Positions 13,725-42,645 of a stretch of DNA of 64,000 nucleotides are shown here, in pieces. The DNA is taken from positions 1 to 64,000 of the forward strand of contig JAJDAP010000033.1 in NCBI GenBank assembly GCA_029261795.1, written 5' to 3'. Origin of the DNA: Deltaproteobacteria bacterium (GTDB taxonomy: Bacteria; Myxococcota_A; UBA9160; UBA6930). A model generated the notes under the pieces. It worked only from the letters and a program-made list of their open reading frames with translations, did no database searches and was not told where the DNA came from. Made by a program: the position numbers and the translations under genes. Positions within the stretch are counted from its first letter, which is position 1. Each line of letters starts with the position of its first letter.

Positions 13725-14204
13725 ATGGGCAAGGCTGCAGACGCGCTGGCGCGCTTCGAGAAGCGGATCGGTGAAGAAGAAGGCGTGAGCGACTGGTTCC
13801 AGGTGGACCAGCAACGCATCAACGATTTCGCCGATGCGACGCTCGATCACCAGTTCATCCACATCGACCCGGAGAAGTCGGCCAAGCTCTCACCCTACAA
13901 GGTGACGATCGCGCACGGCTTCCTGACGCTTTCGTTGTTGCCGCATCTCGGCTCGAAGATTCCGCCGCTCGACCCCGAGGCCTACCAGGGCATGACGATG
14001 GGCATCAACTACGGCCTCGACAAGGTGCGCTTCCCGGCCCCGGTCAAGGTCGGCTCCCGAGTGCGCGCCCGCCGCAGCCTGGCCGGCGCCGAACTCAAGG
14101 GCACGATGATCCAGACCAAACAAATCGTAACCATCGAGATCGAAGGTGAAGACAAACCCGCCTGCGTCGCCGAAAGCCTCACCCGCCTCGTCTACGCCTC
14201 CTGA
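13725..14204 (+). CDS. MaoC-like (R)-specific enoyl-CoA hydratase
   Basis: This 159-residue single hot-dog domain carries the hydratase-2 motif FADATLDHQFIH, with catalytic Asp41 and His46 in the D-x4-H arrangement, and IAHGFLTLSL as the following active-site helix. It would hydrate 2-enoyl-CoA to (R)-3-hydroxyacyl-CoA. AGGAGG lies eight bases before the ATG at 13725, deciding the start over an earlier open stretch that overlaps the SDR. Its last codons and stop codon fall inside the left arm of the palindrome at 14197-14300. Confidence 0.9.
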   Translation: MGKAADALARFEKRIGEEEGVSDWFQVDQQRINDFADATLDHQFIHIDPEKSAKLSPYKVTIAHGFLTLSLLPHLGSKIPPLDPEAYQGMTMGINYGLDKVRFPAPVKVGSRVRARRSLAGAELKGTMIQTKQIVTIEIEGEDKPACVAESLTRLVYAS

Positions 14205-14300
14205 GCGGGGACGGACTCCTCAAAGTTTCAAAGTTGCAAGTTTCCCCACAGGGAAACTTGCAACTTTGAAACTTTGAGGAGTCCGTCCCCGCTCAGGAGG
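14197..14300. repeat. Perfect 50-bp inverted repeat with 4-nt loop, copy 1
   Basis: The two 50-bp arms (14197-14246 and 14251-14300) are exact reverse complements around a CACA loop. The shared core with copy 2 runs from GAGCGGGGACGG inward to AAGTTTCCC. The outermost six bases here are CCTCCT on the left, inside the MaoC gene, and AGGAGG on the right, which is the ribosome binding site of the following gene. There is no T-run, so it is not a simple intrinsic terminator. It resembles a REP/MITE-type palindromic unit; no transposase is nearby. Confidence 0.95.
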
Positions 14301-14305
14301 TTGTC

Positions 14306-15523
14306 ATGGCTCGTGTTGTCAAGCTTGGGGTGAAGCGCCCCGCTGTGAATCCCTTGCTTCCGGATCCGGAGAAGCGAGAGGAGAAGTACACGCTCATCTC
14401 GGTGGACGACCACCTGATGGAGCCCCCGCATACCTTCGAAGGGCGCATGCCGGCGAAGTTCACCGAACAGGCGCCGCGCATCGTCGAGACCGAGGAGGGG
14501 CATCAGGTCTGGGTCTACGAGGACACGCCCTACTTCCAGGTCGGCTTCATGTGTGTCGCCGGCCGACCCGTGGAAGATCACCGCGTCGAACCCTCGCGCT
14601 ATGAAGAAGTCCGCAAGGGCTGCTGGGACATCGACGCGCGAATCCACGATATGGATCTCAACGGTTGTTGGGCCAGCGTGAACTTCCCCTCCGGCGTCAC
14701 GGGATTCGGCGGAACGCTATTCAGCGAATCGAAGGACCCGGAACTCGGGTTGGCGTGCACGCGCGCCTGGAACGATTGGCTCTTCGAGGAATGGTACGGG
14801 AGCTACCCCGACCGGATCGTGCCGCTCGGCATCACCTTTCTTGCCGACCCCGAGAAGGGCGCAGAGGAGATCCGTCGCAACGCGAAGCGCGGCTTCACCG
14901 CTGTGACGCTTCCCGAGCAGCCGCACAATCAGGGCTTGCCGCCCATCTTCGACCCGTGCTGGGAGCCGATCATTCGCGCCTGCGCCGAGACTGGAACGGT
15001 GCTGAACCTGCACGTCGGTTCCTCGGGCTTCGCCAAGATGCCGCCGGGCGCACCGATGCTCGAACTCGGCGCGACGCTATTCCAAGCGATGGCCTTCAGC
15101 TCCTGCGCCGAGTGGCTCTGGAGCGGTTGGCCCGCCAAGTACCCGGAACTCAAGATCGCCATGAGCGAGGGCGGCATCGCCTGGGTCGCCGGATTGGTCG
15201 ATCGCCTCGACAACATCATGTCGCGTTCGGGCTACGGCGTCGGCTGGCCCGATCCGAAGATCAGCCCCTCCGATTGCCTGCGCCGGAACTTCTGGTTCTG
15301 CATGATCGACGACCCATCGTCGGTCCCGACGCTTCCGACCATCGGTGTGGAGAACGTGCTCTTCGAGAGCGACTACCCCCACGGCGACGGCACCTGGCCG
15401 GACACCCAGAAGGTGATGGACGATCTGTTGGGGACACTCCCTGACGACTGGATCCGGAAGATCGCCCACGAGAACGCGGCGAAGTTGTACCGGCATCCGC
15501 TGCCGGAAGTGTGCAAGCCCTAG
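14306..15523 (+). CDS. Amidohydrolase family 2 (ACMSD-like) protein
   Basis: This 405-residue metal-dependent hydrolase is of the amidohydrolase-2 type. It starts its barrel with SVDDHLMEPP (32-41), has the later metal ligand in LNLHVGSSG, and ends with the Asp-containing motif FESDYPHGDGTWPD. This subgroup is common beside hydrocarbon and steroid catabolic genes and is often annotated as a decarboxylase or lactonase-like hydrolase; the substrate is unknown. The start ATG follows AGGAGG by five bases, and that ribosome binding site is the outer end of the palindrome. It converges with the propeller gene, overlapping by 4 bp. Confidence 0.87.
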   Translation: MARVVKLGVKRPAVNPLLPDPEKREEKYTLISVDDHLMEPPHTFEGRMPAKFTEQAPRIVETEEGHQVWVYEDTPYFQVGFMCVAGRPVEDHRVEPSRYEEVRKGCWDIDARIHDMDLNGCWASVNFPSGVTGFGGTLFSESKDPELGLACTRAWNDWLFEEWYGSYPDRIVPLGITFLADPEKGAEEIRRNAKRGFTAVTLPEQPHNQGLPPIFDPCWEPIIRACAETGTVLNLHVGSSGFAKMPPGAPMLELGATLFQAMAFSSCAEWLWSGWPAKYPELKIAMSEGGIAWVAGLVDRLDNIMSRSGYGVGWPDPKISPSDCLRRNFWFCMIDDPSSVPTLPTIGVENVLFESDYPHGDGTWPDTQKVMDDLLGTLPDDWIRKIAHENAAKLYRHPLPEVCKP

Positions 15524-41730: not shown

Positions 41731-42555
41731 ATGCCCAAGCCCCCGCCCGACTACGAACGCGACTACCAGCGCCTGAAGTTCGACCGGCCCTCCGATGGCG
41801 TCCTGCGCATCACGATGGATCGCGAGGACCAACCGCTGAACCCGGTCGACCAGGAGATGCACGGCGAACTCGGCGAGGTCTGGCGGGACATCGACCGCGA
41901 TCCCGGGGTCCGGGCCGTGATCATCACGGGAGCGGGCCGCGCGTTCTCGGCCGGCGGCGATTTCGAGATGATCGAAACGATCATCGAAGACTTCGACATC
42001 CGCGCCCAGAACTGGAAGGAAGCGCGCGAGCTCGTCTACAACGTGATCAACTGCAACAAGCCGATCGTCTCGGCGATGCGCGGGCCCGCGATCGGCGCAG
42101 GCCTGGTGGCCGGCCTCCTCGCCGACGTCTCGATCGCATCGAAGACGGCGCGAATCATCGATGGTCACACGCGGCTCGGCGTCGCAGCCGGCGATCACGC
42201 GGCGATCGTCTGGCCTTTGCTATGCGGCCTCGCCAAGGCCAAGTACTACCTCTTGCTATGCGAGCGCGTCACCGGCGAAGAGGCCGAGCGCATGGGCCTC
42301 GTATCGCTGTGCGTCGAGGACGAAGAACTCGACGCCAAATCGATCGAGATCGCGTCGCGGCTGGCGGCCATGTCGCCCTCGGCCGTGCGCTTCACCAAGC
42401 ACTCGCTCAACAACTGGCTCCGCATGGCCGGCCCGATCTTCGACAACAGCCTCTCGCTCGAATTCCTGGGCTTCACCGGCCCCGACGCCAAAGAAGGCCT
42501 CGCCTCCCACCTCGAAAAGCGAGACCCCGCCTTCTCGAAGCGATCGCCAATCTAG
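41731..42555 (+). CDS. Enoyl-CoA hydratase/isomerase family protein
   Basis: This 274-residue crotonase-fold protein has [18 protein letters not shown], oxyanion segment [15 protein letters not shown], second oxyanion segment [11 protein letters not shown] and a later block [18 protein letters not shown]. In this last block the usual catalytic Glu pair is replaced by Gly/Asp-His, as in many isomerase or thioesterase crotonases. AGGAG precedes ATG 41731 with good spacing. Its TAG stop is one base left of the start of the second palindrome. Confidence 0.87.
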
Positions 42556-42645
42556 GAGCGGGGACGGACTCCTCAAGTTTCAACTTTGCAAGTTTCCCCA
42601 CAGGGAAACTTGCAAAGTTGAAACTTGAGGAGTCCGTCCCCGCTC
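42556..42645. repeat. Perfect 43-bp inverted repeat with 4-nt loop, copy 2
   Basis: Arms 42556-42598 and 42603-42645 are exact reverse complements around CACA. The outer 16 bases (GAGCGGGGACGGACTC) and the inner GCAAGTTTCCC are identical to copy 1, while the middle differs (CAAGTTTCAACTTT here, CAAAGTTTCAAAGTT in copy 1). It fills the whole gap between two converging genes. Its right end supplies two bases of the stop codon of the epoxide hydrolase gene. No T-run is present. Confidence 0.95.

Follow-up and report, generated by a model that had tools for sequence, protein, structure and literature searches.

What places a perfect 50-bp hairpin across the junction of two neighboring genes, with the ribosome-binding site of the second at its foot? 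The question arises in the 64-kb stretch of DNA analyzed here (the window), where a MaoC-like dehydratase gene (13725–14204, plus strand; PF01575, E 2.8e-21) is followed by an amidohydrolase gene (14306–15523, plus strand; Amidohydro_2, PF04909, E 9.9e-28), both open reading frames being supported by Pfam. The junction contains a perfect inverted repeat with arms at 14197–14246 and 14251–14300 (50 nt, 100% complementary) around the 4-nt loop CACA. Folding of the RNA from 14180 to 14330 yields one unbroken stem with a minimum free energy of -113.9 kcal/mol, compared to a shuffle mean of -46.9 kcal/mol (z -16.5), and 0 of 200 shuffles matched it. At the base of the stem, CCTCCT (14197–14202) lies in the MaoC codons GCC TCC and ends on the first base of the MaoC stop, the 3' end of the gene reading GTC TAC GCC TCC TGA and the protein ending VYAS*. 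Its partner, AGGAGG (14295–14300), is the Shine–Dalgarno (SD) sequence of the amidohydrolase, 5 nt upstream of the ATG at 14306.

The original prediction held that the stem runs six base pairs past a shared core and that these pairs join the end of MaoC to the amidohydrolase SD; the sequence confirms both. The core is the palindrome GAGC-GGGGACGGACTCC...GGAGTCCGTCCCC-GCTC (14203–14294, without strand; 44-nt arms and the 4-nt loop), referred to as copy 1, the ends of which follow a consensus common to dozens of copies, with related elements elsewhere. Six extra pairs lie beyond GAGC and GCTC in copy 1; a seventh, A-T, is internal. A second copy in the window (42556–42645, without strand; arms 42556–42598 and 42603–42645, 43 nt each) is located between convergent genes, with a TAG (42553–42555) abutting its left end and a minus-strand T|GA on its right, and has no pairing past GAGC/GCTC.

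Copy 1 belongs to a mobile family that has spread recently. A strict pattern has 46 forward matches in the 5.74-Mb genome and a looser one identifies at least 57 palindromes, while single element ends, with up to one mismatch, occur 81 and 78 times compared to 5 and 4 times in a reversed control. The looser pattern is present in this genome only among the 97 analyzed (0 of 96 relatives), with zero matches in G001, the sole genome of the same genus. For further analysis, 49 interior copies were retained; copies whose flank was shorter than 150 nt, mirrored copies at contig ends, and the pair of overlapping contigs C11/C78 had been removed first. The first 34 nt of the arms are identical in 33 of these 49, which together have 36 distinct left arms. 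The two arms of one copy differ at a mean of 0.57 positions, compared to 6.0 between copies, which indicates that the stem is kept while its sequence changes. By setting, 23 interior copies lie between convergent genes, 18 between tandem genes, and 3 between two gene starts. Three copies are found inside 6 kb on contig C119 of this genome (3705–9393).

Snap-back at palindromes can also occur in a fragmented assembly, and the flanks of contig-end copies C20, C24, C38, and C84 of this genome (G000), mirrored over 35–103 nt, likely arose in that manner. As an explanation of copy 1, such an artifact is extremely unlikely, since copy 1 is located at 14 kb in a 116-kb contig and its two sides carry different genes, 49 copies are interior, and elements of this kind are present in other assemblies.

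The origin of the six extra pairs becomes apparent when the element is removed. Excision of GAGC..GCTC from copy 1 leaves GTC TAC GCC TCC T^AG GAG GTT GTC ATG. The rejoined flanks form the palindrome CCTCCT^AGGAGG, so the extra pairs correspond to the two halves of the target rather than to element sequence: the left half (plus strand, 14197–14202) is host DNA that pairs with the SD, and the right half (plus strand, 14295–14300) is the SD itself. Extension of the stem by arm-to-arm repair was considered and set aside, the joined flanks offering the better explanation. Six or more further pairs are found in 2 of the 29 interior copies with intact GAGC..GCTC ends (shuffled flanks, mean 0.24; P 0.02); the stem extension of copy 1 is unusual, yet it is accounted for by target choice.

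Target statistics were restricted to these 29 of the 49 interior copies, in which GAGC and GCTC are intact on both sides. CT precedes 30 of their 58 ends (P 4e-23), and CA precedes 6. Rejoining the flanks yields CTAG in nine copies and CATG in three, the remaining 17 of 29 forming neither. In the 64-kb window, CTAG occurs 31 times compared to 202 expected from composition. Other tetranucleotide biases of the window include TTAA (0 versus 54 expected) and, most striking, GATC (649 versus 202 expected). The nine joined CTAG sites hardly exceed the 7.8 expected from independent CT ends, and CT may be required at each end individually rather than CT^AG as a whole. Flank symmetry of three or more pairs is found in 8 of 29 copies in this genome, compared to 3.4 with shuffled flanks (P 0.007).

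Corresponding elements of relatives were examined at 40 places fetched from four genomes, the places in G021 having been picked for common arm sequence; the counts of target boundaries cover 17 of the 20 G021 elements, those with intact ends, and 6 of the 7 from G037. Symmetrical flanks were present in 10 of 17 copies in G021 (4.7 shuffled, P 0.0008) and, at five or more pairs, in 5 of 6 in G037 (1.2 shuffled, P 0.003); 11 of the 17 intact-ended G021 copies occupy CT^AG.

Some DDE insertion sequences have CTAG-like targets, and the family might accordingly consist of ordinary MITEs mobilized by a DDE transposase, with a YTAR/CTAG target duplicated on insertion. Such an origin is highly improbable, given that a target-site duplication of 3–9 nt is present in 0 of the 29 intact copies, that the element ends match the flanks of a Y1 transposase gene described below, and that Y1 genes and palindromes co-occur across genomes.

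Target choice is also reflected in the stop codons of the neighboring genes, gene ends being called from codon usage, with a score trained on 29 long ORFs of the window, rather than from annotation. For the 49 interior copies, 46 of 68 gene 3' ends have an in-frame stop that begins between -3 and 0 from the element, and this holds for both genes in 14 of 23 convergent pairs. Where the flank reads T|GAGC, T|GA is the in-frame stop at 27 of 33 gene 3' ends (P 1e-8 versus 1/3); with contig-end copies kept, TGA at -1 is found at 28 of 75. The MaoC stop (TGA, 14202–14204, plus strand) has the same composition, a host T followed by GA of the element. Insertion within TAG (CT^AG), with the element's GA making TGA on both strands, is the simplest account.

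A bias toward gene 3' ends could also be expected if the palindromes were shared terminators or mRNA stabilizers, placed by selection rather than by transposase targeting. The predominance of convergent (23 of 49) and tandem (18) settings fits this proposal, and REPs are known between convergent and unidirectional genes (the accessible text of PMC3733652). We nevertheless consider it unlikely: the exact abutment of stops, the CT before element ends, and the joined CTAG sites are explained by targeting instead, and three copies lie between two gene starts. In addition, the interval 14000–14500 contains 0 terminator-like sites, and the hairpin of copy 1 is not followed by a terminator-like T run.

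If the family inserts in this manner, related genomes should help to define the state of the sites before insertion. In G001, 11 of 12 junctions could be aligned, and the element is absent there. CTAG is located at or near the junction in 3 of the 11 (L018, L079, and L083); at L018, the G001 orthologue reads CCC TAG compared to CTC T|GA here. At the site of copy 1, the element-free spacer between MaoC and the amidohydrolase is 35 nt in G001 and 30 nt in G006, neither of which contains CTAG, and the MaoC C-termini are VYTD*/VYPD* in G001/G006 versus VYAS* here. Given these spacer lengths, the lack of CTAG, and the differing C-termini, the lineage of copy 1 must also have lost spacer sequence and changed codons before or at insertion. 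G001 thus reveals the absence of the element at this site, with no CTAG, and we infer an empty allele GCCTCCTAGGAGG, in which CT^AG would have carried a TAG stop.

A candidate for the mobilizing enzyme is encoded in the same genome. P0001, a Y1_Tnp gene with an intact frame of 306 aa (L037 943–1863, minus strand), is flanked by element-type ends (L037 922–953 and 1945–1976; 32 nt, 91% complementary, 991 nt apart). It matches PF01797 (Y1_Tnp) with 31.2 bits (cut-off 23), and its C-terminal region matches HTH_23 weakly (E 0.0085; 16.3 bits, below the cut-off of 24.6). With the REP_Tyr_transpos model NF047646, it scores 63.4 bits, under the cut-off of 80, which makes it related, but not a member by cut-off. 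The protein sequence contains H-A-H and a tyrosine in YVHLNPV, which we take to be Y1 transposase motifs. Beyond L036 and L037, 28 weak Y1_Tnp matches were found, none with element ends in the retrieved stretch when one mismatch was allowed; they were rejected as movers of the element and belong to another family. These matches (G000 L038–L065) cover model positions ~24–85, many near contig starts, as in a repeated transposase-like family.

Homologues of P0001 were found in 28 of 97 genomes, and the homologous transposases in relatives often have inverted ends of their own, GGGGACG.. or similar. A general GGGGACG...CGTCCCC pattern, applied to 60 relatives, identified many genomes, each with its own palindrome sequence in tens of copies (58 in G005, 52 in G009, 44 in G049, and 37 in G021). 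Eleven of 18 transposase-bearing genomes are palindrome-rich, compared to 2 of 42 transposase-free ones (Fisher P 5e-6), with palindrome-rich defined as a forward minus control count of at least 10 and transposase-bearing as E <1e-30, both thresholds having been set after the counts were known. In G021, G033, and G037, the ends adjacent to the transposase resemble the dispersed palindromes. Taken together, mobilization of the palindrome by a P0001-type TIRYT Y1 transposase is likely, the enzyme being distant from those tested. G025 and G038 are palindrome-rich (24 and 17 GGGGACG palindromes), with no P0001 homologue found in either, and G022 contains three or more palindrome families that differ in their arms (GGGGACGTTGGTT, GGGGACGTTCCT, and GGGGACGGTCCT).

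Based on these data, a model can be formulated that we regard, as a whole, as very probable. Copy 1 would be a non-autonomous perfect palindrome, GAGC...GCTC, of 92 nt, from a family moved by a TIRYT-type Y1 (HUH) transposase and inserted midway in a symmetrical CT^AG target with no target duplication. At this site, the target CCTCCT^AGGAGG would have comprised the last codons of MaoC, the TAG that formerly ended it, and the SD overlapping that stop. The terminal GA of the element would have restored the MaoC stop, converting TAG to TGA, and the target halves would have prolonged the element stem, leaving the SD at the foot of the 50-bp hairpin. On a readthrough mRNA, the amidohydrolase could then be started only with a MaoC-terminating ribosome on the left base of the stem, or once the hairpin is cut or opened.

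Several features of this model have counterparts in described systems. In TIRYTs, or TIRtrons, GGGGWSAS terminal inverted repeats border a tyrosine transposase gene (in the available text of PMC3733652); they form subclass 2.1 of TnpA-Y1 (in that of PMC6006769). P0001 resembles them as a Y1/HUH protein of ~300 aa with a putative C-terminal HTH-like region (a match below cut-off) and terminal inverted repeats starting GGGGAC, and its gene is bounded by such repeats rather than by GTAG REPs; dispersed repeats with transposase-type ends, some of them paired, are a further shared property. In contrast to the TIRYT/TIRtron descriptions in the accessible parts of these papers, the end here is GGGGACGG, which agrees with GGGGWSAS at 7 of 8 letters and is preceded by GAGC, and the copies are near-perfect palindromes of ~80–100 nt. 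CT^AG targeting and stop-codon restoration likewise differ from what those parts of PMC3733652 and PMC6006769 describe for TIRs.

REPINs, the REP doublets associated with RAYT genes, are similar in that they are non-autonomous two-unit inverted hairpins, linked to a particular transposase gene and showing compensatory changes; they differ, as far as the text available from PMC3116915 describes them, in carrying a GTAG tetranucleotide 5' of the stem, in place of which GAGC is found here, and in being composed of two REPs and a spacer rather than one long perfect stem. With respect to target choice, cleavage by TnpA-REP enzymes occurs at CT, and in the case of Marinomonas also at CA (PMC8266576, accessible sections), reminiscent of the CT and, less often, CA that precede the element on both strands. 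CT/CA cleavage is a fitting model by analogy for the element's targets; the data in those sections were obtained in vitro with group 2 and 3 enzymes and GTAG guides. GTAG REPs are described as providing adjacent genes with TAG stops (PMC3733652, in part), and both they and the present elements thus provide a neighboring gene with its stop through the element terminus. In the GTAG REPs of that account, the TAG lies inside the repeat, whereas here a host T and the element's GA form TGA after insertion into TAG, on both strands. A CT^AG target rule was not found described in the available portions of the literature on REP, TIRYT/TIRtron, and RAYT elements and on stop-codon insertion. The element type is already known, and its target rule may not have been described before.

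The consequences for the amidohydrolase were assessed by computing the accessibility of its SD. In the predicted fold of the readthrough RNA, the SD has a mean unpaired fraction of 0.001 and costs 15.7 kcal/mol to open, a value that falls to 5.5–5.7 kcal/mol when the footprint of a ribosome on the MaoC stop codon is held open. RNAs starting at 14251–14290 have an SD opening cost of about 5 kcal/mol, and at the element-free joined junction the SD region still costs 7.0 kcal/mol to open. The folding thus supports the original prediction that the SD is buried in a readthrough transcript and freed by ribosomes finishing MaoC. Because CCTCCT sits in the last codons of MaoC, a ribosome that reaches the stop would have to expose the SD, and coupling would be likely if the transcript is shared. 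According to this modeling, translational coupling may be regarded as a plausible side effect of the insertion. The alternative offered at the time, a transcription start inside the element, finds no sequence support, as a scan of 14000–14500 revealed no sigma-70-like promoter.

A hairpin with these properties could instead have been selected at this locus as an RNA device that couples or switches amidohydrolase translation, a role also raised by the original prediction. The full pairing of the SD in the predicted readthrough RNA and its release when the MaoC stop region is open agree with such a role, as does the burial of AGGAGG by a sequence-diverged element in G021 (see below). An evolved device is nonetheless quite improbable. 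The hairpin belongs to a mobile family with dozens of copies between unrelated genes, mostly convergent (23 of 49) or away from an SD; an SD-like sequence adjoins ~7 of 19 tandem copies, and only copy 1 pairs with its SD, through pairing contributed by the target. The same gene pair occurs in G001 and G006 with a short, hairpin-free spacer, and the 64-kb window has 0 Rfam matches at gathering score. A search of the literature for palindromes at ribosome-binding sites found no paper. Liang, Rudd and Deutscher reportedly studied REPs acting on translation in 2015.

A parallel to copy 1 is found in G021. At L188 (about 300–590), a diverged element with different arms and ends lies within CCTCCT^AGGAGG, directly behind a TAG stop, and AGGAGG is followed by TGGGT-ATG of the downstream frame (AGGAGGTGGGT-ATG). 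Judged from its sequence, this element buries the downstream SD as copy 1 does, and it represents an independent insertion.

A more general proposition, which we regard as possible although doubtful, is that TIRYT palindromes prefer symmetrical CTAG targets, including the stop/SD junction CCTCCTAGGAGG, and that such junctions repeatedly become obligate translational couplers, with the stop repaired. If true, a mobile element would rewire translation between neighboring genes without breaking either. Site choice by REP-like and TIRYT elements, and their frequent location exactly at gene ends, are little understood. The family suggests a concrete, testable rule: CT^AG insertion in stops, conversion of TAG to TGA on both strands, and a preference for symmetrical flanks. 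Burial or coupling of ribosome-binding sites could follow incidentally from such insertions, and a strong hairpin over an SD alone does not constitute evidence of a regulatory RNA. At three places in G037 (L211, L216, and L217), elements start with AAGAAA after CT or TT, and T|AA forms the TAA stop of the neighboring gene, parallel to the T|GA that forms TGA stops in this genome.
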